A model generated the notes under the pieces. It was not told the origin of the DNA. It saw only the letters and a program-made list of their open reading frames with translations, and did no database searches. Below, in pieces: positions 6,023-34,925 of a stretch of DNA of 34,925 nt. Within the stretch, counting starts at the first letter, position 1, and each line of letters opens with the position of its first letter. Both the position numbers and the translations under genes were made by a program. Source of the stretch: Candidatus Woesearchaeota archaeon (GTDB lineage: Archaea; Nanobdellota; Nanobdellia; Woesearchaeales; CG1-02-33-12); assembly GCA_018399355.1 (NCBI GenBank), contig JAGYOA010000004.1, positions 1 to 34,925 on the forward strand. The letters are read 5' to 3'.

Positions 6023-7696
6023 CTAAATACCTCTCTTTGTATATTTTGTGTGCAGAAGTTCCTCGGCCTTCTCACTCAAAGGCCTTCCTAAATATTCCTT
6101 GTACAAAAGCTTTATTGCAGGGTTTTCATAGGAGCGTCTTATTATCTTGTTTTCATCATTGACATAAAGGGCCTGCATTCTTTTTTTGATAATTTCTTTA
6201 GTTGTAGGAATCGGCTGGCCTCCTCCTCCAATGCATCCGCCGGGGCAGGACATAACTTCAATAAAGTCATACTTGCACTCTCCTTTTTTTATCTGCTCAA
6301 GAAGCTCTTTTGCATAATGCAATCCATTAACAACAACAAAGGTTAAATCATGGCCATTAATCATTATATTCCCTTCCTTAACATTTTTTAATCCCCTTAT
6401 CTGATTGAACTCAAGGATTTCTAAATCCTTTCCTGTTTCCAGCTCGTAAGCAGTCCTCAATGCCGCTTCTGTTACTCCTCCTGTTGCTCCAAAAAGAGTC
6501 GCGGCTCCTGATGAAATTCCTAAAGGAGCGTCAAAATTATCCTCCTTTAAATTATTAAAGTTTATTCTGTGATTTTTTATCATCCTGGCAAGTTCTCTTG
6601 TTGTTAATACATAATCAACATCTTTGTTTAGTTCTTTTCTCTGTGCTTCAAATTTCTTTGCAGTGCAGGGCATTATACTTACAACAACTGCATTTTTCTT
6701 TTTTATCCTGCTGTTTTCAATATAGTAATTTTTTAAAACTGCCCCAAACATCTCATGAGGGCTCTTGCATGTGGAAACATGATTTAATAATTCTGGATAG
6801 AAATGCTCTATGTATTTTATCCATGCAGGGCAGCATGAGGTTATCATTGGCAGGTTTTTATTTTTTTTAACCCTTTCAACAAGCTCTGTTGCCTCTTCCA
6901 TTATTGTTAAATCAGCCCCAAACTGGGTGTCAAATACTTCTTTAAAACCGAGTTTTCTTAATGCAGACACCATCTTTCCTGTAACTAAAGTTCCTGGTTC
7001 TAATCCAAATTCCTCTCCTAATGAAGCCCTAACAGCAGGGGCTGTCTGGACAAAAACATGCTTGTTTTTCAATGCCTTTTCAACATCTTTTATTGAGTCT
7101 TTCTCATATATTGCATTTACAGGGCAAGCCAAAATACATTGCCCGCAATGAATGCAGACAGAATCATCTATTCTTCCCTCAAAAGCAGGTGTTATTTTCG
7201 TGTGGTATGAACGATATGCAAAGTCAATTGCGTTTACGTTTTGCATCTCACATGCCTGAATGCACTTTCCGCATAAAATGCATTTGTTGTCATCCCTTGC
7301 TATTCCTATTCCTTCATTAGGATTGTGTATCTTTCCTATTGTTGAGAACCTTGTTTGCCTAACTCCTACATCCTTGGCAAGAACGCAAAGCTCATGTTTT
7401 TTTGTTTGTGTAAGATGTTCTTTGTGCTCTGAAATCAAAAGCTCTGTGTTGATTTTCCTTGCTTTTAAAACGCGCTGTGATTCTGTGTCAATAACCATTC
7501 TTTCTTTGACTTTTGTTGAGCATGAAGGCATCATTTTTCCATTAACTTCTACAAGGCAGACGCGGCAAACTGATTTTGGATGAAATCTCTCGCTGTAGCA
7601 TAGAGTTGGAATTTTTATTCCTTGTTTTTTTGCAACCTGAAGTATTGTCTGCTCTTCTTCGCACTTTATTTTTTTTCCATTAAGGGTTATTTTCAT
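6023..7696 (-). CDS. hydA: [FeFe]-hydrogenase catalytic subunit (NuoG-like N-terminus + H-cluster domain)
   Basis: H-cluster motifs TSCCPAW...STCKSPHEMFG (L1), MPCTAKKFEAQ (L2), EVMSCPGGCIGGGGQP (L3); N-terminal 2Fe-2S ferredoxin domain; CILCGKCIQAC and CIHCGQCILACP 2[4Fe-4S] domain. Confidence 0.95.
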   Translation of the reverse strand: MKITLNGKKIKCEEEQTILQVAKKQGIKIPTLCYSERFHPKSVCRVCLVEVNGKMMPSCSTKVKERMVIDTESQRVLKARKINTELLISEHKEHLTQTKKHELCVLAKDVGVRQTRFSTIGKIHNPNEGIGIARDDNKCILCGKCIQACEMQNVNAIDFAYRSYHTKITPAFEGRIDDSVCIHCGQCILACPVNAIYEKDSIKDVEKALKNKHVFVQTAPAVRASLGEEFGLEPGTLVTGKMVSALRKLGFKEVFDTQFGADLTIMEEATELVERVKKNKNLPMITSCCPAWIKYIEHFYPELLNHVSTCKSPHEMFGAVLKNYYIENSRIKKKNAVVVSIMPCTAKKFEAQRKELNKDVDYVLTTRELARMIKNHRINFNNLKEDNFDAPLGISSGAATLFGATGGVTEAALRTAYELETGKDLEILEFNQIRGLKNVKEGNIMINGHDLTFVVVNGLHYAKELLEQIKKGECKYDFIEVMSCPGGCIGGGGQPIPTTKEIIKKRMQALYVNDENKIIRRSYENPAIKLLYKEYLGRPLSEKAEELLHTKYTKRGI

Positions 7697-8814
7697 TTTA
7701 ATTTTTCCTGAAACTCATTTTTAAAATACTTAAACTCTTTCATAATATGGTTTACAGAGGACTGGCCAAGCCCGCATAATGAAGTATCTCCTATAACACC
7801 GCATAATTCCTCTAAAAGCTTGAGATCTTTTCTTTTTGCTTTGCCTAATGAAATTTTCTGCAGCAGCTCAAGAACCCTTATATTTCCTTCCCTGCATGGA
7901 GTGCATTGCCCGCAGCTCTCAAACTCAAAGAATTTTGAGATTATTGCTGAGATATCAAGAATGTTTCTTGTCTCATCAACAAGAATTAATGATGACGCCA
8001 GCATAGCTCCTTTTTTTCTTATCGGCTCACAGTCAAGTATTAAGTTTTCATCATAGGGAATGCATCCGCCATAGCATCCAAAGTAAATTGCCTTTATTTT
8101 GTTTTTTGGTCTTGCCATTTGAATTGCTTTTTTTAATGGAATTCCAAGAGGAAGCTCGTAAACTCCTGGCTTTCGAACATCACCTGAAATGCAAAAGAGT
8201 CTCCAGTTATCATTCCAGTTCTTGTCAGTGAAAATTAAGGGAAGGTTTGCAAGGGTTTCAACATTATCAACCAAAGTAGGCATTGCAAAAAGCCCTTTTC
8301 TTGATGGAAAGGGGGGTTTTATCCTTGGATTTCCCCTTTTGCCCTCTATTGATTCTATGATTGCTGTCTCATCACCGCAGACATATGCTCCTCCCCCTAT
8401 TATTATATGAAAATTAAAGGTTATGTTAATCTTTTTCATTGCTTTTTTTGCAGCTTGAATTGCTTTCTCTATGTTTGGCTTTAGATAAGAATACTGGCCC
8501 CTAAGATAGATATACCCTTCTTCTGAGTTTATTGCCCTTGCAGCAATGAGCATTCCTTCTATTACATTTAAAGGGTTTTTTTTAAGAATAAATCTGTCTT
8601 TAAAGGTTCCGGGCTCGCCCTCATCTGCATTGCATATTATGTATTTTTTTACTCCTTCTCTTGACATTGTCATTTCTATTTTTTCACCAGTTGGAAAATT
8701 AGAGCCTCCTCTTCCTTTAAGTTCTGATTTTTTTATTTTCTCTTTGATTTCCTCTGGACTCATCTGCATTGCTTTTCTCAGCCCATTAAACCTTGTTTTT
8801 CTTAATATTTTCAT
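7693..8814 (-). CDS. hydB: NuoF-like NADH/FMN-binding subunit of [FeFe]-hydrogenase
   Basis: GRGGSNFPTG, NADEGEPGTFKDR, GGGAYVCGDETAI, ESCGQCTPCREG...LCGLGQ; 4-bp overlaps with both neighbours. Confidence 0.93.
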   Translation of the reverse strand: MKILRKTRFNGLRKAMQMSPEEIKEKIKKSELKGRGGSNFPTGEKIEMTMSREGVKKYIICNADEGEPGTFKDRFILKKNPLNVIEGMLIAARAINSEEGYIYLRGQYSYLKPNIEKAIQAAKKAMKKINITFNFHIIIGGGAYVCGDETAIIESIEGKRGNPRIKPPFPSRKGLFAMPTLVDNVETLANLPLIFTDKNWNDNWRLFCISGDVRKPGVYELPLGIPLKKAIQMARPKNKIKAIYFGCYGGCIPYDENLILDCEPIRKKGAMLASSLILVDETRNILDISAIISKFFEFESCGQCTPCREGNIRVLELLQKISLGKAKRKDLKLLEELCGVIGDTSLCGLGQSSVNHIMKEFKYFKNEFQEKLK

Positions 8815-12073: not shown

Positions 12074-15000
12074 TTACTTTTTCTTTTTCTTGTATTTTTT
12101 AAGCTCTGCAGTTGCAACTACAGATAATTTTTCAAAAACATCCTTTGGTCTTTTTTCTTTCTTTGAAGCTGGTTTTTTTGTTTTCTTTGAAGATACAGTT
12201 TTAGTTGTTTTCTTTTTAGTTGTTTTCTTTTTTTCTGTTTTTTCAGGTTGTTTTAAAGTTTCTGTTTTTCCAATATCCATTCTTGAATGTATCTTGCTTC
12301 CTGCATCGCTCTTAGGAGAAGAAAAGGTGCTGAAAATCTTGTCATGTTCCTTAAACCTCTCCCTATCTTTTCTTAAATTATCCATTGCCTGTTTTCTTCT
12401 TAATTCAATTGAACTTTCATGAGGAGTTAATGAAGGAGGAGGTCTGTAAGAATTTCCTGGGTTTGGTTTTGGTTGAATTGGCTTAAAGTTTGTTGTTGTG
12501 AATGAACTTGTTGGCTTGGTTTTTTTCTTTTTGTTTTTAAAAACAAGAAGATATAATAACCCTGATACCAAAAAGATTATTCCAATTATTAAAAGGAACC
12601 ATGGCCAAAATCTTGATTCTGAAACATCTGGTTCATCATCTATTGGTTCTTCTTTTATATGTTCATCAGATGTTGGTTTTGAGGGAGTAGGAGGTGTATA
12701 TTCCTCACATCTGTTAAATTCATTGCAATATCCTGACTCACAATCGGATTTTTCATCACATTTCTTACCTATAGCACATTTTTTATCTTTAAATTCTGCG
12801 CAGTATCCCCCACAGTCAACATCTGTTTCATCTTCATCTAATTTATTGTTTGAGCATGAATCCACTCCAATGCAAATGCCATCACATTTTCCTGAAGTGC
12901 AGTCTGAATTATCCTCACATTCCTTTCCTTCTATGCATGGATCACAAGATCCTCCACAGTCAGTATCTGTTTCATCGCCGTTTTTTACACCATCAAAACA
13001 GCTTGGCTCTGCGCACATATTGCTTGAGTTGCAAAAACCGCTATGGCAGTCACTATCTTCTGAACAATTTTTTCCCAATCCACATTCAGGGCAAATTCCT
13101 CCTCCGCAGTCAGTATCTGTTTCATATCCATTCTGTATATCATCATAGCATGTTGCAGGTTTTTTCAATGAATCAACAATAACCCCATCACTTTGTCCTG
13201 GCTGGCCTACTGATCCTGCCCTATTTGATGCTTTTACAAAAAAGAAATATTTTGTTCCTTCTGTAAGGTTAAGGTCTTCTTTATTATGGTCTTGGTCAAC
13301 CCAAATAAACATATCTTCATCATGGCTTTTTGTCCAGTTAACAATAATATTTTCTGATTCATCCTGTATTTTATAAAGGAAGTAATCAACTCCTGATAAT
13401 GGCCTTTCATACAATTCCCATTTAGCTCTTATCTTGTTTGTGTAGTAAGAATATTCAGGGAAATCATCTATGTTGCTTGTATCATCAACTACTGGTATGT
13501 TTACAGGCGCTGTATCAACAATAAATTGCGCTACTTCATTTGCGCTATTTCCGCCACTATGGCACTCTACATGATAAGTATGTGTGCCATCATTAAGATT
13601 ACTTATGGTTGTCTTATGCTCATATCCTCCTGAACCTAATCTTTCTTCTATATTGGAGGAAGTATTGCCGTAGAAACATTCTGAGTCCTTGTTTGTTTTT
13701 ACTTCTAAATAAACATAAGACTCATTGTTGTATTTTTTTGTGATTATTTCAATTTCAATTTCTGCATCAAGATCAACATTAACTGTTATTTCTTTTGTAT
13801 CAGATACAATCTCTGCCCTGTTCATGCATGCTACATAGTAAGAATATGAATTCTTTTCTTCGCTGTCTATGGTAATTGTTGCCTGATGGGCATCTTTGAA
13901 TATATTTTTATCAAAATCAGGAAATTTATTTTCCATCAGCTCATAATCCTGTTCTGTTGTATCATACCTACATATTGTTTTGTCATCAGTTCCAACAACT
14001 AGTACAGTTTCAAGAGGATATTCAATTATTTTTGGCGCATAATAAGTGTGTATAACTGGTTTTGAAGAATCCACTGAAAGCTCAAAATTATATGTGTTTC
14101 CGTCCGCATCCCAATAACCATCATAACATTTAACATAAAGTTTAGTTGTTTTTCCTTCAATTAATTCATAATCTGTTTTTTTGTGCTCTTCTCCTCCTGT
14201 AATTTCAAAATCAATCATATGCTTGTAGTTTAATATTCTATCATAATATTTGCATTCTGCATCATGGTCTGTTAACAGAACTATATCAAATGGGCTTTTG
14301 TCTGAAACGCCGTAACTAGGCTCAGCAAGTTCTATGTAAGGTCTGCACTCTCCCCCTAAATCAACAACAACCTCTCCTATTTGTTCATCTTTTTCCTTGT
14401 TAAAGCAGAGTATGTCTCTTGTGCACGCAGGGTCATCTTTGGTTATTTGAACAGAATCATCATAATCATTGCAGTCTAATCCCAGGCAATAACCATCTTC
14501 ATCATTATCTATTGCCTCTCCTTTTTCATTAACCTCGCAGCCCAAAGGAGTCCACTCTTCTTCATCAATAGGATTCAACACTTCATCTCCATCCTGATCA
14601 GGGTCAAATTCATCAGGATTTCCATCTCCATCATAATCGCTCATGCAAACCCCTTCCCAACAGGCATATCCTTCCCCACAGTCTGAATCTTCCTCACAAT
14701 CTGAATCAGGGCAAGTGCATTCATCTGTGCATCTTCCAGGGCAGGCATCATCATCTGTTCCGTCACATTCCTCAAGCCCTTCTCTTATATTATTCTGACA
14801 TTCAGAAGGAATTTCCCTGCATGTTAGGTCTCCAAGGCATTCATAACCTTCAGGGCATGGACATGCTACACAATCATAAGACAATTCACCATCACGGCAG
14901 AATTGGGATGTTGTCTCATTACATTCTCCATCCTTTGTTCCGTCTTCGCAATCTCTAGGTTCAGTTTGAAATTCGCAATGGCTTACATCAAGCCATTCTG

Positions 15001-16282
15001 ATTCATAGGCATCGTAATTTGATTGTCCTTCTGGATATTGAGGATAAAGGCGAAACATTATTTTTCCTGTAAGGTGTTCAACACATTCGCTTTCAGTTAA
15101 ATAATAAAAGGCAACAAAAAAAGAATTCCCTTCAACAGATGTTTCAGATAGAGTAACATCTACATCACATGAGCCGTCTTCTCCTCCTGTGCCATCCTCA
15201 TCATAAAATAAATCAATTTCATATGAAATAGCCTCTTCATATTCTCCCCAAGTGAGAAGTACATAATCGCAGCTTTCTAAGGTTGCCTTGAAATCTGCGG
15301 CTGTAACTGCAATTTCCTCGCATGATAAGGTTGTAGGATTATAAATTTTTCCAGGGGGGCAGTAAGCGCAGCATTTATTATTCCCTTCAAATGTTGTTCC
15401 TCCATTTTCTATTTTGCACCATTCGTCTGATGGTTCTCCAATGGAATATGATTTCCAAATAACATCATTACCTAAATCATAATTTGAGCAGTTTGTACTG
15501 CATGAAGAAAATCCAGTTTCAATATAACTTGATAATGAACTCATATCAAGGTTGAAGGGAAGACCTGAATTATTTTCGCATGAATCACATACGGGAGCCC
15601 CCACACATTTTTGCGCTTTTGAGCAGTAATATGTTTTTGGTGGGCAGTATATGCAACAATGTGTTCCCTGACCTGAACATAGAGTGCACCAATCACTTGT
15701 TCCTAAATTATATTCAACTAGATTAGGAGCATCTGGACACCCATATGCACATGTGGCAAATCCTTCTCCTACTGAAGATTCATCATAATCAACTAAAGAT
15801 ATAGCGCCAGAACCACATCCTCCTTGTTCCATAGTGCATGGAGTAACGCATGGAACAGAACAGCAGTTAGGACAACCATCAGGAGGATTAACCCAACAGT
15901 CTGGACAAACATCATTTCCCGTGCATTTATAACCTTCATATGGTGAATCACCACAACTTTTTGGAACGCACCAGCTATCACAAGTTTCATCTACAATATT
16001 TCCTTCATCATCATAAACATTTTTACAATTACATGTGCCTGAACGTTTCATATTATCTGGGCAAGAACTAAAACATGCTGCATCTAAAGGAGGATCATAT
16101 GGCGCAGGGTTTGATGCTTCGCAGAAACCTTCACAAGTTTCATCTGGTGGTGTGAGTTCCTCCTCAGGAGTAGAAGGAGAGTTATTAAAAAGTAACCATA
16201 ATATCCCCCCAATACCTAAAACTACTACAGCAGTTAAAGGATCAAATCCTTTTTTGTTTTTTCTGATCTTTCTAAGATACAT
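12074..16282 (-). CDS. Giant Cys-rich surface protein, prepilin-like N-terminus, C-terminal TM and Lys-rich cytoplasmic tail
   Basis: Probable start MYLRKIRKNKKG/FDPLTAVVVLGIGGILWLLF (track start 16333). Many Cys, acidic Ca-binding-like segments, three DETDxDCGG repeats, TM RFWPWFLLIIGIIFLVSGLLYLLVF, tail EKKKTTKKKTTKTVSSKKTKKPASKKEKRPK...KKYKKKKK. Confidence 0.85.
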   Translation of the reverse strand: MYLRKIRKNKKGFDPLTAVVVLGIGGILWLLFNNSPSTPEEELTPPDETCEGFCEASNPAPYDPPLDAACFSSCPDNMKRSGTCNCKNVYDDEGNIVDETCDSWCVPKSCGDSPYEGYKCTGNDVCPDCWVNPPDGCPNCCSVPCVTPCTMEQGGCGSGAISLVDYDESSVGEGFATCAYGCPDAPNLVEYNLGTSDWCTLCSGQGTHCCIYCPPKTYYCSKAQKCVGAPVCDSCENNSGLPFNLDMSSLSSYIETGFSSCSTNCSNYDLGNDVIWKSYSIGEPSDEWCKIENGGTTFEGNNKCCAYCPPGKIYNPTTLSCEEIAVTAADFKATLESCDYVLLTWGEYEEAISYEIDLFYDEDGTGGEDGSCDVDVTLSETSVEGNSFFVAFYYLTESECVEHLTGKIMFRLYPQYPEGQSNYDAYESEWLDVSHCEFQTEPRDCEDGTKDGECNETTSQFCRDGELSYDCVACPCPEGYECLGDLTCREIPSECQNNIREGLEECDGTDDDACPGRCTDECTCPDSDCEEDSDCGEGYACWEGVCMSDYDGDGNPDEFDPDQDGDEVLNPIDEEEWTPLGCEVNEKGEAIDNDEDGYCLGLDCNDYDDSVQITKDDPACTRDILCFNKEKDEQIGEVVVDLGGECRPYIELAEPSYGVSDKSPFDIVLLTDHDAECKYYDRILNYKHMIDFEITGGEEHKKTDYELIEGKTTKLYVKCYDGYWDADGNTYNFELSVDSSKPVIHTYYAPKIIEYPLETVLVVGTDDKTICRYDTTEQDYELMENKFPDFDKNIFKDAHQATITIDSEEKNSYSYYVACMNRAEIVSDTKEITVNVDLDAEIEIEIITKKYNNESYVYLEVKTNKDSECFYGNTSSNIEERLGSGGYEHKTTISNLNDGTHTYHVECHSGGNSANEVAQFIVDTAPVNIPVVDDTSNIDDFPEYSYYTNKIRAKWELYERPLSGVDYFLYKIQDESENIIVNWTKSHDEDMFIWVDQDHNKEDLNLTEGTKYFFFVKASNRAGSVGQPGQSDGVIVDSLKKPATCYDDIQNGYETDTDCGGGICPECGLGKNCSEDSDCHSGFCNSSNMCAEPSCFDGVKNGDETDTDCGGSCDPCIEGKECEDNSDCTSGKCDGICIGVDSCSNNKLDEDETDVDCGGYCAEFKDKKCAIGKKCDEKSDCESGYCNEFNRCEEYTPPTPSKPTSDEHIKEEPIDDEPDVSESRFWPWFLLIIGIIFLVSGLLYLLVFKNKKKKTKPTSSFTTTNFKPIQPKPNPGNSYRPPPSLTPHESSIELRRKQAMDNLRKDRERFKEHDKIFSTFSSPKSDAGSKIHSRMDIGKTETLKQPEKTEKKKTTKKKTTKTVSSKKTKKPASKKEKRPKDVFEKLSVVATAELKKYKKKKK
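12703..13150 (-). repeat. Three tandem Cys-rich repeats (about 50 aa each) within the giant protein
   Basis: CYDDIQNGYETDTDCGGGICPECGLGKNCSEDSDCHSGFC / CFDGVKNGDETDTDCGGSCDPCIEGKECEDNSDCTSGKC / CSNNKLDEDETDVDCGGYC...CAIGKKCDEKSDCESGYC. Confidence 0.85.
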
Positions 16283-16372
16283 TAATATTCCTCTTTTTCG
16301 TTTTCTTTTTATGTTATTATGGTTTTTATACAAATCTCTATATAAATCTTTTTGTTTTTATATCTGTTTATT

Positions 16373-22663: not shown

Positions 22664-23401
22664 ATGTGGATATGGTTAGGACTTCTTGTTGTTTTTATTG
22701 CAGCAGGAATAAAGGTTGTTAATGAGTATGAAAGAGGAGTTAGGTTTACTCTTGGGAAATATTCTGGGGTTATTATGCCTGGACTAAGGTTTGTTATACC
22801 TATATTACAGACATGGCAGAAAGCTGATATAAGAACAAAGGCTATTGATGTTCCAGACCAGGATGCAATAACAAGAGACAATGTTTCTATAAAAGTGAAT
22901 GCTGTTTTATATTATAAAGTTGCCCAAGCAGAAAGGGCTATAATCCAGGTTGAGCATTATGGATATGCTGTTTCTCAGTTAGCCCAGACAACAATGAGGG
23001 ATGTTGTTGGAGAAGTAAGCTTAGATGATTTGTTAAGCAAAAGAGATTCTGTCTCATCAAAGATAAGAATGATTGTAGATAAGGCAACTGATCCATGGGG
23101 AATAAAAGTTGAATCTGTTGAGCTGAAGCATGTTGAGCTTCCAGAAAACCTAAAGAGAGTTATTGGAAAAGAGGCAGAGGCAGAAAGAGAAAAAAGAGCA
23201 GTGATAATAAAGGCAAGTGGAGAAGTTATTGCAGCAAATAACATGGCCAAGGCGGCAAAAACCCTTGCTACAGCTCCAGGAGCACTGCACTTAAGAACAC
23301 TGCAGAGCATAAATGATATAAGCTCTGACCAAAGCAATACAGTAGTATTTGCAGTTCCACTAGAAGCACTAAGAGCTCTTGAAAGCATGAAGAAAAAGTG
23401 A
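22664..23401 (+). CDS. SPFH domain / stomatin-like protein
   Basis: VNEYERGVRFTLGKYSGVIMPGLRFVIPILQ, DIRTKAIDVPDQDAITRDNVSIKVNAVLYYKV; SD-like GGGGTGGT before the ATG. Confidence 0.9.
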   Translation: MWIWLGLLVVFIAAGIKVVNEYERGVRFTLGKYSGVIMPGLRFVIPILQTWQKADIRTKAIDVPDQDAITRDNVSIKVNAVLYYKVAQAERAIIQVEHYGYAVSQLAQTTMRDVVGEVSLDDLLSKRDSVSSKIRMIVDKATDPWGIKVESVELKHVELPENLKRVIGKEAEAEREKRAVIIKASGEVIAANNMAKAAKTLATAPGALHLRTLQSINDISSDQSNTVVFAVPLEALRALESMKKK

Positions 23402-23570
23402 TTTTTGGGCTTCCAAAAGAAATAAAGGTATAATTTTTTTATTTTATTTTTTCCTTTGAAGTTTTCTAGTTAAATTAAAGGAATATTATAAAAAAGTATA
23501 GATTTCTCCTCTTCAATTATAAAACAAGAAAAACAGATTAGTATGGTTTTACCTATCCTAATATAAAAAA

Positions 23571-23600
23571 TTTCCAGTGGAAATAAGGGGGTGTCATAAC
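23571..23600 (+). promoter_or_regulatory. Origin recognition box (ORB) 1
   Basis: TTTCCAGTGGAAATAAGGGGGTGTCATAAC: the archaeal mini-ORB dyad TTCCA(N)TGGAA plus G-string. Confidence 0.75.
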
Positions 23601-23653
23601 AGTAAAAATTTCATATTTAAAAAACAAGCAAGCAAAAGCTTTATAATGAGGTT

Positions 23654-23682
23654 TTTCCATTTGAAATTAAGGGGGTATAACC
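23654..23682 (+). promoter_or_regulatory. Origin recognition box (ORB) 2
   Basis: TTTCCATTTGAAATTAAGGGGGTATAACC: same layout and orientation as ORB1, start 83 bp away. Confidence 0.7.
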
Positions 23683-23713
23683 TTTTTAAAATATAGTTAG
23701 CTAAACAAAAGAA

Positions 23714-23720
23714 TTTATAA
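23714..23720 (+). promoter_or_regulatory. Candidate TATA box of mcm
   Basis: TTTATAA about 39-45 bp upstream of the mcm ATG at 23759. Confidence 0.4.
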
Positions 23721-23758
23721 AGAAGTTTTTTTATTGTTTTTTAGGGTAGGTAGTTAAG

Positions 23759-25777
23759 ATGGATGCTTCAGAGCAAATAAAAAGATTTTATAATTTTCTT
23801 GAAAAAAATTATCAGGATAAACTTCTGGAAAATATCAGAAGAGGGAAAAACTTCCTTATCATGGATTTTTCCAAGCTTTCTATGTTTGACCATGAACTCG
23901 CTGAAGAGATTCTTGAGCAGCCAGAAGAAACAATAAAGGCAGCTGAGATAGCAGTTGAGCAGTTTGAATTGCCTAGCCCCATAAAAAGATTCAGAATAAG
24001 ATTAACTAATATACCTGAAGACCAAACAGTTGCAATAAGACATATAAGAGCAATGCATATAGGAAAACTTATTGTTTCAAAGGGGATTGTAAGGCAATCC
24101 TCTGATGTAAGGCCTCAGACTGTATCAGCAAAGTTTGAATGTCCAAGCTGTGGCAACACAATTTCTATATTGCAGACAGGCCAAAAATTCAAAGAGCCAA
24201 CAAGATGTTCATGTGGAAGAAAGGGAAAATTCAGGCTTTTAAGCAAGGAGCTTGTTGACTCACAGCGTATTGTTGTTGAGGAAGCACCTGAATTTCTTGA
24301 TGGAGGAGAGCAGCCAAAGCGTATATCTGTTTTCTTAAGAGAAGACCTTGTAGAACCAGTAATGGAAAGAAAAACCACTCCTGGAAGCAAAATTTTAATA
24401 GCAGGAATATTAAAAGAGCTTCCAATTAATTTAAGAGAAGGGGGAACTTCAACAAGGTTTGATATTATTATTGAAGCAAATTATATAGAGCCAATAGAAG
24501 AAACATTTGAAACTATTGATATAAGTGAAGAAGATGAAAAAGAAATAATAAGCCTTTCAGAAGATCCTAAGATATATGAAAAGCTTGTAAAAAGCATTGC
24601 TCCTTCTGTTTATGGCCACGAAGACATAAAAGAGGCTCTTGTTCTGCAGTTAATGGGGGGAGTGAAAAAAGAAAGAAATGACGGCACAATAACAAGAGGA
24701 GATATGCATATCCTTCTTGTTGGTGACCCAGGAGCTGCAAAAAGCACCCTTCTTATATTTATGTCGCATGCAGCCCCAAAGGCAAGATATGTTGCTGGAA
24801 GAGGTGCAAGCGGAGCTGGATTAACTGCATCTGTTGTAAGAGATGAATTTTTAAGAGGATGGGCTCTTGAAGCAGGAGCAATGGTTCTGGCTAATGGTGG
24901 TTATTGTATGATAGATGAAATGGACAAGATGAGCACAGAAGACAGGTCTGCGCTGCATGAAGCATTATCACAGCAAAAAATCAGTATAAGCAAGGCAAAC
25001 ATACAGGCAACCTTAAGGGCAGAAACAACTGTCTTGGCTGCAGCAAACCCTAAATTTGGGAGGTTTGATCCTTATCAGCCAATTGCCCAGCAGATTGATT
25101 TGCCTCCTGCATTGATAAACAGGTTTGACTTAATATTCCCTGTAAGAGACCTGCCAAGCAGGGAAGTTGATGATAAGATTGCAAGCCATGTTTTAAATAT
25201 TCAGCAGAGTATGAATATAAGAGAGCCTGATATATCAATACCTTTACTTAAAAAATATGTCGCTTATGCCAAGCAAACCATAAAACCAAAGCTTACTGAC
25301 AGTGCAATAGAGGAAATAAAAAATTTTTATGTTGAGCTTAGGAATATGGGTACAGATGAAGAGGGAATAAGGCCAATCCCTATATCAGCAAGGCAGCTTG
25401 AGGCCTTAGTCAGATTTGCAGAGGGTTCAGCAAAGGTAAGACTGTCAAAAAAAGTTACAAAATCAGATGCAAAAAGAGCAATAAGAATCCTTAAATACTG
25501 TCTTATGCAAGTCGGTTTTGATTATGAAACTGGCCGCATTGATATTGACAGGATTTCAACAGGAATTCCTGCAAGTCAGAGAAGCAGAATAGTGCAGGTT
25601 AGGGAAATAATAAATGAGCTTGAAGGCACATTCGGAAAAACAATTCCATTGGAAGATATAATAAGCTCTGCCTCTGAAAAAGGAATAGAGGAAGCAGAGG
25701 TTGAAGAAATAATAGAAAGGCTTAAACGCTCAGGAGATATATTTGAGCCAAAAAGAAATTTTTTAAGCAAGCTTTAA
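23759..25777 (+). CDS. mcm: MCM replicative helicase
   Basis: Zinc motif CPSCGN...RCSCGRKG, Walker A GDPGAAKST, Walker B CMIDEMDKM, arginine finger region INRFDLIFPVRD, C-terminal winged helix. Confidence 0.97.
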   Translation: MDASEQIKRFYNFLEKNYQDKLLENIRRGKNFLIMDFSKLSMFDHELAEEILEQPEETIKAAEIAVEQFELPSPIKRFRIRLTNIPEDQTVAIRHIRAMHIGKLIVSKGIVRQSSDVRPQTVSAKFECPSCGNTISILQTGQKFKEPTRCSCGRKGKFRLLSKELVDSQRIVVEEAPEFLDGGEQPKRISVFLREDLVEPVMERKTTPGSKILIAGILKELPINLREGGTSTRFDIIIEANYIEPIEETFETIDISEEDEKEIISLSEDPKIYEKLVKSIAPSVYGHEDIKEALVLQLMGGVKKERNDGTITRGDMHILLVGDPGAAKSTLLIFMSHAAPKARYVAGRGASGAGLTASVVRDEFLRGWALEAGAMVLANGGYCMIDEMDKMSTEDRSALHEALSQQKISISKANIQATLRAETTVLAAANPKFGRFDPYQPIAQQIDLPPALINRFDLIFPVRDLPSREVDDKIASHVLNIQQSMNIREPDISIPLLKKYVAYAKQTIKPKLTDSAIEEIKNFYVELRNMGTDEEGIRPIPISARQLEALVRFAEGSAKVRLSKKVTKSDAKRAIRILKYCLMQVGFDYETGRIDIDRISTGIPASQRSRIVQVREIINELEGTFGKTIPLEDIISSASEKGIEEAEVEEIIERLKRSGDIFEPKRNFLSKL

Positions 25778-28452: not shown

Positions 28453-31400
28453 TTAACCAAACCACTTGCCTAATCCTTCCTGCTTTTCTTTTTCCTTGCC
28501 AAAAACATCATCAACCCTTCTTTGGGTTAATTCTAATGTTTGTTTTAAATAAACAGGAACATCATACTTATTGGCAAGGCTTATGCTTGGCTTTAAATAC
28601 TTGATAATTGATCCTTCAGATATTGTAAATATTATTTTTCCGCCGCACTTATCACACTTTCCCATTAGAGGGGGCCTTCTGAACTTTTTGTTGCACTTAA
28701 CACACCTAAATTGCTGCATTGAAAATTTTCTTAGGTTTCCTTTTATATCTTTTATAAAATGTTTGTCAATAACCATTGTAGCAACTTCTGTCTGGTTGAC
28801 TGCCCTTATTTTTTCAGCAAGTTCCATCTGGCCTTTTAATTTGTCTTCCATAGATGGAATCTCTTTGTATGAAGAGCATAATATTCCTGAGTTCATATTT
28901 TCAACAGGATGTGTAAACCCCATTTTTTCGTATTGTTTTTCTGTTCCTAATCTGGTGTTTATTTGTTCTATTTTAACATCATAAGGGGTTTTATATTGCA
29001 TGCATGCCTCATAAAACTCGAGAGGATATTTCCATGCAACATCTAGGTCAAAAAACATGTCATCAACTTCTGCAGGAATAACCTTTGATGTGATAACAAG
29101 GCATGCATCCTGTGTTGAACCGCGGTGTGCAGGAAGAAACTGCCTTGAAAAATTAAGGAGAGCATCCATTAAAAGCATAACACTTGCTTCATCACCATCA
29201 CAATCTCTTCTCGTTGCTGCATGAATCATTGGATGTGCATAGAATCCCTGTGTTTTTGAAAATCCTAAAATCCTGCAGACTGTTCCTGCAGATGTATGGG
29301 GAGCAAGGGCAACAACAAGCTGGCCGGCAAGCTCATCAGGAGATTTTATTTTATAGTAAGGATTTAATTGATAAATCTTGGAAAGAAGGTCATCAATAAA
29401 ATTAGCAACATTAAACAAAACTATATCGGCGCCAAGCTCACTTGAGTTAGGGCAAGAGGGAAGTATAATATCCTGGGGCATTATTTCAATAACCTGGTTT
29501 TCATCAATTATTTCCTTGCCATAAATATCTTTTACATATCCCAATTGTTTTAATTTTTCTATTGATGTCCTTATTTCTTTTGGTTTAAAATGAGTTATAG
29601 GAAGCTGTGTCATATCATATCTTGTAGTTCCGTCTTTGTTGACATAAATATCATGCTCTGCCCTTAATATTCCTTTTATTAAATGCTCAGGAATGTGATC
29701 TTTGTTGGAAGTTCCCCTAACTCCTTTTATTAAGTCAGGACATGTCTTAATCTTTAATTTTTTCATAGAATAATCAAAATATCTCTTAATATCAACGCTT
29801 TGTATTTTGTATGGTTTTGCTTCCCCATGTTCACATTTTTCTTTTTCGATATCCCCACAAATGTTGCAATAATACATTTTTTTTGTTTTCGAACCACATT
29901 TTTCACATACTGAAAAAATAGTTTTATTATCACATTTAGGGCATTTATACAAAGGGAGCTCTGCTGTTATCTTTCCATTTTCAATTGCTGCCTGAAAACA
30001 TCTTAAACGATCCCCTTCATCACCAACAGGAAACAATACATGTGGGCTTCCTGTAAGCTTTCTCATTTTTGCTTTTTCAGGCCTTCCCATCCTTGCACCA
30101 ATAAATATCCCTGCCTTGTCCATTACTTTTATACTGGAAATTAAATTTATTATATCAAGAACATTCTTATCCTTGTTTTCTTGAACTATTTTTTTTGTTT
30201 TTTCAATATCCTGTTTCTCATTTATATTTAAATTTGAAAGCAATGCAACTGCATCATTTCCCTCAATAACTACAAACTCATTTGTTGCAACGTTGTGCTG
30301 CACCCCAAGATTTTCAAGTATTTTTTTTGGCTCTTTTCTTAATGGAAGCACTAATTTTAATTTTTCTTCTGTTATTATCTTCATTTCATCAATCCAATTT
30401 AAAAAAACAATAAATTCATCAAAAGAAATTGTCTTCCAGTAAAAGGTATAGCTTGGATGTAGGGGTATCTTTAATTCTTCTGAAATTTTTATTGACAAAT
30501 TTGCACCTGGCTTTATATAAAAATAATTTTTTATTATGCTGTTAATTTTTTCTTCATCTATTTCTAATAAGTTTGATAGCTTTGTTGTGTCTAAGCTTCC
30601 AAATGTGTCAACAACAGCCTTTTCAAGATCCTGCACCCACCATTCTTCACAATATCCAGCAGGAGCAAGAATATGGCCTCTGTTAAAAAAGTCGCCGTAA
30701 TTAAAAAGGATATCCCCAAGAAAAATTATTTCCTTTATTTCATCAACATATTTTTTAGCTTCTTTTTCAGAATCAATTCTTATAACTCTTCCATCTTTAA
30801 GCTTTACTGTTGGGCCCTCTATTGAATTGCATGGGTTAACTGTTGTTGCTTTTCCCGGTCTTTCAATCTTTAGCTGCGTTCCTGTTGCTATATAGCCGTT
30901 TAAGACTACCATTGTTGCAGGATTGATGTTTGATGATGAATATCCTGATGTTCTTGAGCGGCCGTATCTCAATCTAAATCCTCCTGTTCTCATTGGAAAT
31001 GCAAGAATTGGCCTTCCTGCAACTAAATCCTGTATAAAGGTATAGTTAGGAGATATTTTTTCATTTTCCTTATTTACCTTGCCCCTTGCCTTCATCTTTT
31101 TTTGAATTTCTAAAAACTCCTCAAGAAAATCCCAGTGCTCAAGCTGAAAATCATGGCCCCATTTTGAAAGCCTGTTCCATAATTTTGCTGCTTTTTGGGA
31201 CAGGCATTCTGCTACAACAAGACAGAAACCCCCTCTTATTCTGTTTGTGGGTATTCTTTCAATATCTTTAAAGTTTGATACTTCAATACTTTCAGTAGGG
31301 TCGCCGTCAATCTGAACTGGAAGTTTTTTCAATAAAAATTCAAGTTCTTTTTCGCTGGGAAGATATTGTAAGTTAGTTGCTCTTTCATGATAATCAAATG

Positions 31401-31998
31401 TTTCCCTTATCATCCTATTTATTTCTATTTCTGTAGGGTCATAAGTGGAATAACCCATTTTTTTTCTTACATAATCTGCAATCAAAACAGAAACAGAGCC
31501 TCCTGTTCCCCCTGCGCTTCTTATAGGTCCTGAGTATTTTATTGCAAAGTATTCCTTATTATCCTGTTTTCTTGTTCTTATCTCAATTCCAACAAAGCCT
31601 TCTAAAGGAGATGCAACTGTACCCATTGTTATATATGCAAATCCCACCCTTATTCCTACTTCTATTGCTTGTTTTTTATTTTCAAATTTACAGAATTTTT
31701 CCTGCGCAATCTCAAGTGCTATTGTCAATGCAACTCTCCATTCCTGAGAACCATATTTTTTTTCAAGCTCAATTATTCTTTCTGATATTCCTGAATTTAT
31801 TATTTGGGGGGCAACTGTTGAAACAAGGCCTTCAACACGTTCGGCCATGTTTTTTGCAAGAGGTATGCTGACTTCATCTTCTGGGTCATATCCTTTTTTT
31901 CTTGCTTTTCCTGCAATTTCATAGGCCTTTTTAACTTCAACATCTATTTTATTGATGTAATCTCGGATTTCAGAGCTTGTTTTAATATCTTCTACCAT
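28453..31998 (-). CDS. polC: DNA polymerase D large subunit DP2
   Basis: GPIRSAGGTGGSVSVLIADYVR, RTGGFRLRYGRSRTSGYSSSNINPATM, RRDCDGDEASVMLLMDALLNFSRQFLP, zinc fingers. M5 of the track ORF (31998) is a likely start because it follows the DP1 stop (track start 32010). Confidence 0.96.
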   Translation of the reverse strand: MVEDIKTSSEIRDYINKIDVEVKKAYEIAGKARKKGYDPEDEVSIPLAKNMAERVEGLVSTVAPQIINSGISERIIELEKKYGSQEWRVALTIALEIAQEKFCKFENKKQAIEVGIRVGFAYITMGTVASPLEGFVGIEIRTRKQDNKEYFAIKYSGPIRSAGGTGGSVSVLIADYVRKKMGYSTYDPTEIEINRMIRETFDYHERATNLQYLPSEKELEFLLKKLPVQIDGDPTESIEVSNFKDIERIPTNRIRGGFCLVVAECLSQKAAKLWNRLSKWGHDFQLEHWDFLEEFLEIQKKMKARGKVNKENEKISPNYTFIQDLVAGRPILAFPMRTGGFRLRYGRSRTSGYSSSNINPATMVVLNGYIATGTQLKIERPGKATTVNPCNSIEGPTVKLKDGRVIRIDSEKEAKKYVDEIKEIIFLGDILFNYGDFFNRGHILAPAGYCEEWWVQDLEKAVVDTFGSLDTTKLSNLLEIDEEKINSIIKNYFYIKPGANLSIKISEELKIPLHPSYTFYWKTISFDEFIVFLNWIDEMKIITEEKLKLVLPLRKEPKKILENLGVQHNVATNEFVVIEGNDAVALLSNLNINEKQDIEKTKKIVQENKDKNVLDIINLISSIKVMDKAGIFIGARMGRPEKAKMRKLTGSPHVLFPVGDEGDRLRCFQAAIENGKITAELPLYKCPKCDNKTIFSVCEKCGSKTKKMYYCNICGDIEKEKCEHGEAKPYKIQSVDIKRYFDYSMKKLKIKTCPDLIKGVRGTSNKDHIPEHLIKGILRAEHDIYVNKDGTTRYDMTQLPITHFKPKEIRTSIEKLKQLGYVKDIYGKEIIDENQVIEIMPQDIILPSCPNSSELGADIVLFNVANFIDDLLSKIYQLNPYYKIKSPDELAGQLVVALAPHTSAGTVCRILGFSKTQGFYAHPMIHAATRRDCDGDEASVMLLMDALLNFSRQFLPAHRGSTQDACLVITSKVIPAEVDDMFFDLDVAWKYPLEFYEACMQYKTPYDVKIEQINTRLGTEKQYEKMGFTHPVENMNSGILCSSYKEIPSMEDKLKGQMELAEKIRAVNQTEVATMVIDKHFIKDIKGNLRKFSMQQFRCVKCNKKFRRPPLMGKCDKCGGKIIFTISEGSIIKYLKPSISLANKYDVPVYLKQTLELTQRRVDDVFGKEKEKQEGLGKWFG

Positions 31999-31999
31999 T

Positions 32000-33592
32000 T
32001 TAATTTCCAAATTTTAATATTTTTACATCTCTTGTTTGTAAATTAATTATAGGAACTCTTGATGGTTCAGGGTGATGTCCTACTTTTTCCTGAAAAGATG
32101 TTTTGCTTTGCCAGCATGAGCCGCAAATCATTGTAACATTTTTATAGTTTGCAACTGATGTTTTATGTATATGACCAGTAAGAAAAAAATCAGGCACTTT
32201 GTTTATAACCAAAGGGTCTATCTTAACATCAGGTATATAGAGCGTTGATGTATGTGTAGGGGCCAAATGCCTTTTTTGCAATAAAAATTTCATCATTAAA
32301 TCAGCCCTGTCATAACCTCCATTGTTTCTTATAGATTCCACATTTGCCATATAATAATCAAAAGAATATCCATGATAAAGCAATACATCAAAACCAGGAA
32401 AATCATTTGTTGCTCCTATATTAACAACAGAGGGGTTTGAAACCAGGATTGTATTTGGAAGGTCCCATATTGGCTTTGCAAAATCCTTGTATAAAACAGG
32501 CTGGGGCTCTGCAATGCGCATAGCATCATGGTTTCCAGGGCATATTATTATTTTTATATTTTCAGGTATTTTTTTTAAAAATTCAGCACATCCTTTGTAT
32601 TGTTCATATATATCTTTTACAACAAGCTCTGTTTCCTGGCCTGGATAAATCCCAACACCATCAACAAGGTCTCCTATAATAAATATATATTTCACGTTTT
32701 TTGCAATATTTCTTTGTTTTTCATTTCCTGTTTTTTGGTTAATCCATTCAATAAACTTGTTGAAATCTTGTTCAAGAAAGTTATTTGAGCCGTAATGAAT
32801 GTCAGAAAGGCATATTGCATATCCTTCATAAGGTGCTTTTTTTAATTCTTTATTTAGTGGGATGTCTGGAAAGATTAAATTGTTTGTAAAAACAATGTTT
32901 TGGCCGCTTACCCCAACTATACCTATAACTTCATCATGAACAATATCTTTTGCAGGGTTATAAATCTCAGACTTGTTTTTGTTTATCAAAACATTAACAG
33001 AACCTGTCTGATCTTCCAGAGTAATTAATAAATTATTATTTTTTGTGTATTTTTTTTCCATCACTGTTCCAATCAAAGAAATGTTTTCCTTTTCTTTTTT
33101 GTTTTTAATCCTGCTTATAGACATCAGGTTTTGAAATTCCTGTCTGTTTTTTAATATATCCTCTATAGATTTATATCTTGCATTAAACAATGAAACAAAG
33201 TCTTGAACATCCCTTTTTTTTGATTCTTCTTTATATGAAAATATAATTTTTACATCAGAAAAATCTGGTTTTTCTTTTTGTTTTTCATTTTCAGTGGAAA
33301 TATCAAGAAATTTTTCATATAAACTGTTGTTTCTCTGTTTTTCAGACAAAACTTTTAACCTTTCAAACTCCACCCAATTGGTTTCCTTATTATTTTTATT
33401 ATTTAATATTTTATAAGAATCATTGTTTAAAAAAAGAAAATCATCATTAATTTTATCTTCAGAGATAAGTTTTATTAATTCTTCTTTGTTTGTATTTTCT
33501 TTTATTTTATCAATAAAACCAGGACTTACTAAGATGTTTTTTCTTAAAAAGAAATCTACTATCTCCTCTTGTTTATTAAAATTATTTTCCAT
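32000..33592 (-). CDS. polB: DNA polymerase D small subunit DP1 (Mre11-like exonuclease)
   Basis: Phosphoesterase motifs SDIHYGS, GDLVDG, PGNHDAMR, YHGYSFD, TGHIHKT; OB fold VNVLINK; N-terminal helical domain. Confidence 0.95.
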   Translation of the reverse strand: MENNFNKQEEIVDFFLRKNILVSPGFIDKIKENTNKEELIKLISEDKINDDFLFLNNDSYKILNNKNNKETNWVEFERLKVLSEKQRNNSLYEKFLDISTENEKQKEKPDFSDVKIIFSYKEESKKRDVQDFVSLFNARYKSIEDILKNRQEFQNLMSISRIKNKKEKENISLIGTVMEKKYTKNNNLLITLEDQTGSVNVLINKNKSEIYNPAKDIVHDEVIGIVGVSGQNIVFTNNLIFPDIPLNKELKKAPYEGYAICLSDIHYGSNNFLEQDFNKFIEWINQKTGNEKQRNIAKNVKYIFIIGDLVDGVGIYPGQETELVVKDIYEQYKGCAEFLKKIPENIKIIICPGNHDAMRIAEPQPVLYKDFAKPIWDLPNTILVSNPSVVNIGATNDFPGFDVLLYHGYSFDYYMANVESIRNNGGYDRADLMMKFLLQKRHLAPTHTSTLYIPDVKIDPLVINKVPDFFLTGHIHKTSVANYKNVTMICGSCWQSKTSFQEKVGHHPEPSRVPIINLQTRDVKILKFGN

Positions 33593-33624: not shown

Positions 33625-34836
33625 TCAAGTTAATCCTAACCCTTCCTCTAAGATCTTCTTTATTTTGGATTCAGATGCAGACCTTATTGCAAGGGATATT
33701 TCCCTTGTTCTTCCGTAACGGCCCTTTGATATAACCTTTGCATTTATTATTCCAAGCATATCAAGTTCAGCTATTATATCAGAAACTCTTCTTTGGGTTA
33801 ATGGTCTTAATCCTGCCCTAAAGCATGTTCCCTTATAAACTTCATAGGCTTTTCCAGTAAATATTATATTGTTTTTTTTGGTATAAAGTGATAATATTGA
33901 ATGAAGCACTGCCTGAAATTGTTTTGGTTGTGTTGTTATTATATCCATGATACGGTCTCTTTCAATCTTGTCTTCAGCATCATCTATGTGTTTTATTTTA
34001 ACCTGTGTATATCCATTTCTCTCTGCGAGTTCACCTGCAACCCTTAAAAGCTCTAATGCACGCCTTGCATCTCCATGCTCACGGGCAGCATAAGCAGAAC
34101 ATTTTTCAATCACACCTGGCTCAATAACTTGTTCATTAAAGGCCTCTTTTGCCCTTTGATTTAATATATCCTGTATTTGAAGGGCATTATAAGGGGGAAA
34201 CAATATCTCTTCCTCTGATAAAGATGATTTAATCCTTGGATCAAGATTATCAACAAAAATCAAGTCATTTGATATTCCTATTATAGATATTTGGGATTTT
34301 TCAAGCTCTGCATTTATTCTTGTTAAATTATAAAGCAGCTCATCACCAACTTTCTTAACAAGCTGGTCTATTTCATCTAAAACAATTATTAAAAGTTGTT
34401 TTTCACTGTCAATTGTATTGAAAAATATTTTGTATACTTCATCAGTTGGAAGGCCTGTAGGAGGTATTTCTTTGCCAAACTCCCTTACAAGCTGGGCCAT
34501 TAGCCTGTATTCTGTATCAGCAACCTTTCTAAGCTTGCAATTAATATAAATAAGCTTTAAAGGTATTTTTTCTTTTTTTGCTATTTCTGACATCTGCTGT
34601 ATAGTATATTTAATGGAAAGTGTTTTTCCAACCCCTGTTTTGCCGTAAACAAACAAGTTTGATGGCTTTTCAAGCCTTAATGAAGGTCCTAATATGCTTG
34701 CTATCTGCTGTATTTGGTCATTTCTATGCAAAATAAGCTCAGGAAAGTAGGTTGAAAGGAATATCTGCTTGCTTTTAAACAAGGATTCCTTACTTAAGAA
34801 TTTTTCAAAAAAACTACCTAACCCCTTTTGTACCAT
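33625..34836 (-). CDS. cdc6: Orc1/Cdc6 replication initiator
   Basis: Walker A YGKTGVGKTLSIKY, Walker B LLIIVLDEIDQL, sensor AAREHGDARRALELLRVAGELAE, C-terminal winged helix LTQRRVSDIIAELDMLGII. Confidence 0.96.
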   Translation of the reverse strand: MVQKGLGSFFEKFLSKESLFKSKQIFLSTYFPELILHRNDQIQQIASILGPSLRLEKPSNLFVYGKTGVGKTLSIKYTIQQMSEIAKKEKIPLKLIYINCKLRKVADTEYRLMAQLVREFGKEIPPTGLPTDEVYKIFFNTIDSEKQLLIIVLDEIDQLVKKVGDELLYNLTRINAELEKSQISIIGISNDLIFVDNLDPRIKSSLSEEEILFPPYNALQIQDILNQRAKEAFNEQVIEPGVIEKCSAYAAREHGDARRALELLRVAGELAERNGYTQVKIKHIDDAEDKIERDRIMDIITTQPKQFQAVLHSILSLYTKKNNIIFTGKAYEVYKGTCFRAGLRPLTQRRVSDIIAELDMLGIINAKVISKGRYGRTREISLAIRSASESKIKKILEEGLGLT

Positions 34837-34842
34837 TTTTTA

Positions 34843-34864
34843 CTCCATATGAAAATAAGGTTTA
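34843..34864 (+). promoter_or_regulatory. ORB-like element in the cdc6 promoter
   Basis: CTCCATATGAAAATAAGGTTTA resembles TTTCCATTTGAAATTAAGGGGG but the G-string is reduced to GG. Confidence 0.35.
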
Positions 34865-34893
34865 GTATTTCATATAAAAAACTTGTTATTTTA

Positions 34894-34922
34894 GCCACCC
34901 ACCCCTTGATTTCAGATGAAAG
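34894..34922 (-). promoter_or_regulatory. ORB-like element upstream of cdc6
   Basis: Minus strand CTTTCATCTGAAATCAAGGGGTGGGTGGC aligns with ORB2 (TTTCCATTTGAAATTAAGGGGGTATAACC). Confidence 0.5.
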
Positions 34923-34925
34923 CTG

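Follow-up and report, generated by a model that had tools for sequence, protein, structure and literature searches.

In the closest described systems, the cdc6-linked origins of Pyrococcus, Sulfolobus (oriC1) and haloarchaea, an Orc1-1-type initiator is encoded beside a region bearing ORB or mini-ORB elements, which consist of a dyad followed by a G-string (PMC2643942; PMC4010727). The linkage of cdc6 to the gene for DP1, as in Thermococcales, and the neighbourhood of mcm and aIF2-beta are known in other archaea (PMC2643942). Saccharolobus Orc1-2, an Orc1 paralogue, is a promoter-binding regulator of DNA-damage genes that binds its own promoter too (PMC9738581), and the ORBs of Haloarcula hispanica oriC2D lie outside the origin proper, yet close to it, and are thought to control initiation (PMC3936714). 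Almost nothing has been described of DPANN replication origins in the open literature that we searched, and the way in which archaea adjust their supply of helicase to initiation is, to our knowledge, little understood.

The window, the whole stretch of 34,925 nucleotides analysed here, forms one contig in a draft genome of 0.92 Mb; when MCM sequences are compared, its named relatives are Woesearchaeota/Nanoarchaeia MAGs. A replication island in the window comprises mcm, an OB-fold protein gene and aIF2-beta, with DP2, DP1 and orc1/cdc6 on the opposite strand. The replicative helicase gene mcm (23759–25777, plus strand; 672 aa) has a Pfam MCM P-loop match at 1.8e-89 together with OB, lid and archaeal WH domains. 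The gene upstream of the mcm spacer is of the SPFH/band-7 type (22664–23401, plus strand; Pfam Band_7, 9e-40). The PolD large subunit, DP2, is encoded at 28453–32010 (minus strand; Pfam PolC_DP2 domains, best 2e-125), and the small subunit, DP1, is encoded behind cdc6 at 32000–33592 (minus strand; Pfam DNA_pol_E_B and Metallophos). Elsewhere, the window encodes an [FeFe]-hydrogenase large subunit with a C-terminal small-subunit domain beside a NuoF-like subunit (6023–8814), here in an archaeal genome, and contains a 1419-aa open frame (12074–16333) with no Pfam match at 0.001.

The initiator gene orc1/cdc6 (33625–34836, minus strand) matches TIGR02928 with 423 bits; no other strong homologue was found in the genome, and no other TIGR02928 match exceeded the cut-off. 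Its best PDB matches are S. solfataricus Orc1-1 (2qby_A) and A. pernix Orc1 (2v1u), and its winged-helix region is nearly the same in sequence as that of these ORB-binding Orc1-1 proteins; that is, the genome encodes a cognate initiator with a predicted ORB-reading winged helix.

The spacer between the end of the SPFH gene (23401) and the start of mcm (23759) is 357 bp long, and the earlier note had placed two same-orientation ORBs within it. Both are present: ORB1, ATTTCCAGTGGAAATAAGGGGGTGT (23570–23594, plus strand), scores 33.1 bits on an order-wide position weight matrix built from 70 sites across the order, the family's own among them, and ORB2, TTTTCCATTTGAAATTAAGGGGGTA (23653–23677, plus strand), lies 83 bp downstream and scores 26.8 bits on the same matrix. 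Each fits the dyad TTCCA-N3-(T)GGAAA followed by the G-string. A search with TTTCCANNNGAAATNAAGGGGGT, allowing up to three mismatches, returned these two sites and no others in the window, against 0.03 sites expected from shuffled sequence; two sites were reached in none of 100 shuffles. With a second model, trained on the ORBs of other families only, the family's own being left out, ORB1 ranked first in the 0.92-Mb draft genome (match 23569–23594, E 3.3e-5) and ORB2 second (match 23653–23678, E 3.1e-4); the third-ranked match (18.6 bits) fell within a coding frame. The note had named many equally good matches in coding DNA as evidence that would speak against the pair, and this pattern was not found genome-wide. 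ORB1 and ORB2 are genuine ORBs, that is, predicted Orc1-binding boxes.

Across the rest of the window, the order-wide matrix exceeded 15 bits only at the site upstream of cdc6 (21.5). A degenerate third ORB-like site, GCTTCCAAAAGAAATAAAGGTATAA, is located in the mcm spacer at 23409–23433 (plus strand; 14.2 bits on the order-wide matrix). The weak string at 23411, which the note had suggested may be a degenerate copy, is real but degenerate (E 0.06 genome-wide under the other-families model), and most genomes of the family have a similar degenerate site some 160 bp before ORB1. Other ORB-like matches in this genome fall inside coding frames and seem to be chance matches; they are those in C6 (within a pyruvate:ferredoxin oxidoreductase-like gene), C72, C28 and C82. 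A single ORB-like dyad also occurs in this genome between FtsZ-like and diphthine-synthase-like genes (C45:2640; L333, about 1506).

On the cdc6 side, about 10–11 kb from the mcm ORBs when measured from the cdc6 start (34836), an ORB, GCTTTCATCTGAAATCAAGGGGTGG, is found upstream of the gene (34899–34923, minus strand; 21.5 bits), and the contig ends 2 bp further on. A weak inverted ORB-like site (34841–34865, plus strand; 10.1 bits) stands beside the cdc6 start and is a possible autoregulatory site. The contig thus ends 89 bp past the cdc6 start, inside the cdc6 promoter (34837–34925), and an inverted partner ORB is expected from relatives to lie beyond that end: most relatives with enough upstream DNA carry a plus-orientation ORB about 75–240 bp, and an inverted ORB about 190–640 bp, upstream of cdc6. 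Such an inverted pair is the canonical archaeal origin design. In many relatives, a weak half-ORB in inverted orientation also lies near the TATA box and start of cdc6, which suggests autorepression.

The mcm ORBs are conserved within the family and, in a related arrangement, in many families of the order. ORB1 and ORB2 are kept, with their 83-bp spacing, in all nine family genomes. In the order's other families mcm is preceded by tbp, and one to four ORBs on the same strand, spaced mostly 81–86 bp apart, lie upstream of the tbp–mcm pair, about 700–970 bp before mcm; some families of the order have no ORB at tbp–mcm. We also sought ORBs at the relocated tbp of the family studied here and found none. 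Because tbp in this family sits elsewhere without ORBs, the ORBs have stayed with mcm. Tracts of 0.1–0.4 Mb from nine relatives contain ORBs of at least 20 bits solely near cdc6 and upstream of tbp–mcm. Even in G050, where cdc6 and tbp–mcm are 38 kb apart, strong ORBs are still confined to these two places; G027 has no ORB at its split mcm.

Related motifs were observed at other loci. In G011 and G012, pairs of full ORBs 22–25 bp apart lie away from both mcm and cdc6 (L342, 2024–2049; L343, 2043–2065). In the family studied here, three to four tandem TTCCA-N3-GAAA dyads, 19–23 bp apart and without a G-string, stand directly upstream of a dUTPase gene (contig C14, L346, 935–990; L340, L341 and L344), and G003 has similar tandem dyads upstream of a ribonucleotide-reductase-like gene (L345, 1968–2014); both gene names come from reading translations, not from a family search.

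The position of the ORBs relative to the core promoter is conserved across lineages. The TATA box of the mcm promoter, TTTATAAA (23714–23721, plus strand), begins 36 bp after ORB2 and shows the highest conservation of any block in the spacer (0.93 column identity); within the family, most of the remaining spacer is less conserved than ORB1, ORB2 and the TATA box. When the distance is taken from the end of the proximal 25-bp ORB to the start of TTTAWAWA, 21 of 34 genomes place the TATA box at exactly 50 bp and nine, this genome included, at 36 bp, in AT-rich DNA where each promoter contains several TATA-like strings. The 50-bp distance is shared by 15 of the 25 genomes outside the family, a count reached in none of 5000 draws of a jittered-offset null (mean maximum 3.9), although the genomes are related and not fully independent, so that the counts yield no clean probability. 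These genomes span many families, and the remainder of the spacer has diverged. The 14-bp difference between 36 and 50 bp corresponds to no whole number of helical turns. A composite ORB–TATA pattern matches about half of the order's genomes and few in the rest of the class, some cdc6 promoters being among the matches; the reversed-pattern control gave no matches.

Taken together, the fixed ORB–TATA distance, the single orientation of the boxes and their retention with mcm after tbp had left give good sequence support to the Orc1-controlled promoter that the earlier note had offered as one of two readings. On balance, we consider it probable, if not by far, that the mcm spacer is an Orc1-responsive (tbp–)mcm promoter with an array of Orc1/Cdc6 boxes, set inside an origin island, and that it may join in initiation. 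Orc1, whose gene lies 10 kb away and has an ORB-bearing, probably autoregulated promoter, would bind the mcm boxes as it does at origins and would thereby modulate mcm transcription. Such binding would more likely stimulate or gate TBP/TFB loading than block it, because the ORBs lie 36–50 bp upstream of the TATA box and not on it; to favour activation over repression is guesswork based on position. The supply of helicase, and of TBP as well in most families, would then track the level or nucleotide state of the initiator. The array may also take part in initiation, since both ORB clusters lie in one island, which carries the skew switch in G017, the one complete relative. The initiator thus probably controls the helicase gene beside, and perhaps as part of, the replication start.

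The alternative that the note had put first is that the mcm spacer is itself a chromosome replication start, either the origin or a second one beside a cdc6 origin, at which the ORB array would load MCM; we regard this as possible but doubtful. Its one clear skew case is G017, a complete chromosome in one contig. There, sampled third-position GC skew has mostly negative values between about 145 and 771 kb and positive values from 791 kb onwards, round the circle, as far as about 100 kb. One skew switch thus falls within the cdc6–mcm island and one opposite it on the ring. The best switch, at 780–781.5 kb, is at the tbp–mcm ORB (781,466), and a switch at the cdc6 ORB (764,086) loses about 11 units of fit (bootstrap about 1%), although the G017 mcm ORB is a single, weaker copy. 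The skew therefore leans towards an origin in the island, with the mcm side favoured in this genome. The skew of G024 also best fits the mcm side, and the confinement of strong ORBs to the cdc6 and tbp–mcm regions in the sampled relatives' tracts is as an origin there would have it. However, the skew of G058 points to the cdc6 side, that of G053 lies closer to mcm with a poor fit, G021, G027, G020 and G019 do not fit well, and the switch does not have the same sign in all genomes; the sample comprises nine relatives, the present genome is a draft, and signals of this kind can be displaced by rearrangement or by the draft state of an assembly. The window's own GC skew tracks gene direction and is unusable as origin evidence. 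The architecture of the spacer also differs from that of a cdc6-linked origin: it is not directly adjacent to cdc6, whose promoter has an ORB of its own, and its ORBs all share the plus orientation, whereas the inverted pair stands at cdc6. The AT-rich unwinding segment that had been proposed around the boxes did not stand out, since the AT content of the spacer (0.762) is ordinary beside the 0.69–0.85 of the window's other intergenic stretches; composition was dropped as evidence for an unwinding element, and by this measure the spacer has no special one. Finally, a fixed ORB–TATA distance is no known requirement of an origin. The mcm spacer is a candidate origin, favoured by the switches of G017 and G024 and opposed by G058, by the poor fits of most others and by the inverted pair at cdc6.

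The boxes could instead serve as an initiator sink, titrating Orc1 near the origin and so limiting re-initiation, as proposed for H. hispanica oriC2D. Lying 8–40 kb from the cdc6 ORB pair, they would be replicated soon after it, and an ORB-rich region that lowers oriC2 activity provides a precedent (PMC3936714); we nevertheless judge a sink improbable, since the array has just one to four boxes and titration would need no fixed ORB–TATA distance and no position before mcm in many families. Still less probable, and in our view very much so, is that the boxes are the operator of a dyad-binding regulator other than Orc1. The tandem dyads lacking a G-string before dut in this family and before the ribonucleotide-reductase-like gene of G003 indicate that the dyad alone may have another reader, but the mcm boxes are the full dyad and G-string found in the cdc6 promoter, and the genome's Orc1 retains, as far as its sequence tells, the ORB-reading type of winged helix.

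An extension of the Orc1-responsive promoter reading, which we put forward tentatively and consider unlikely as it stands, is that the initiator of this order of DPANN archaea runs a small S-phase-like regulon, in which ORBs in register with TATA boxes would control tbp–mcm and cdc6 and, in the family studied here, related tandem dyads would act before dut or a ribonucleotide-reductase-like gene. If true, the level of the initiator would set the supply of helicase, TBP and dNTPs jointly. In the largely open literature that we searched, we found nothing on point on an Orc1-controlled mcm promoter or tbp–mcm operon, nor any description of an ORB–TATA module at tbp–mcm; we know of no such module described. 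A fixed ORB–TATA module before tbp–mcm offers a concrete, testable example in which an initiator would act as a transcription factor with its own helicase and a general transcription factor as targets. It also points to where the origin island of a large uncultured lineage probably lies.

Compared with the known systems, the locus shares with the cdc6-linked origins the same dyad and G-string and an Orc1-1-type initiator beside an ORB-bearing region, and with Thermococcales the cdc6–DP1 linkage (PMC2643942; PMC4010727). It differs in that its boxes stand at mcm, in one orientation, about 83 bp apart and in register with a TATA box, whereas the inverted pair stands at cdc6. The proposed control of transcription by an Orc1-family protein resembles that by Saccharolobus Orc1-2; unlike Orc1-2, a non-initiator that is without the ORB-reading arginines and reads ANTTTC, the sole strong Orc1 here keeps an initiator-type winged helix, and its predicted sites are full ORBs. 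As in oriC2D, ORBs lie outside, yet close to, the origin proper, but oriC2D is a case of titration, is situated downstream of oriC2-cdc6E and has neither a fixed promoter geometry nor a position at mcm. By analogy, the arrangement also recalls the DnaA boxes in the bacterial dnaA promoter, which serve autoregulation (PMC3936714): in both, initiator boxes lie inside the promoter of a replication gene, although the initiators are unrelated and the target here is the helicase gene, together with tbp in most families.
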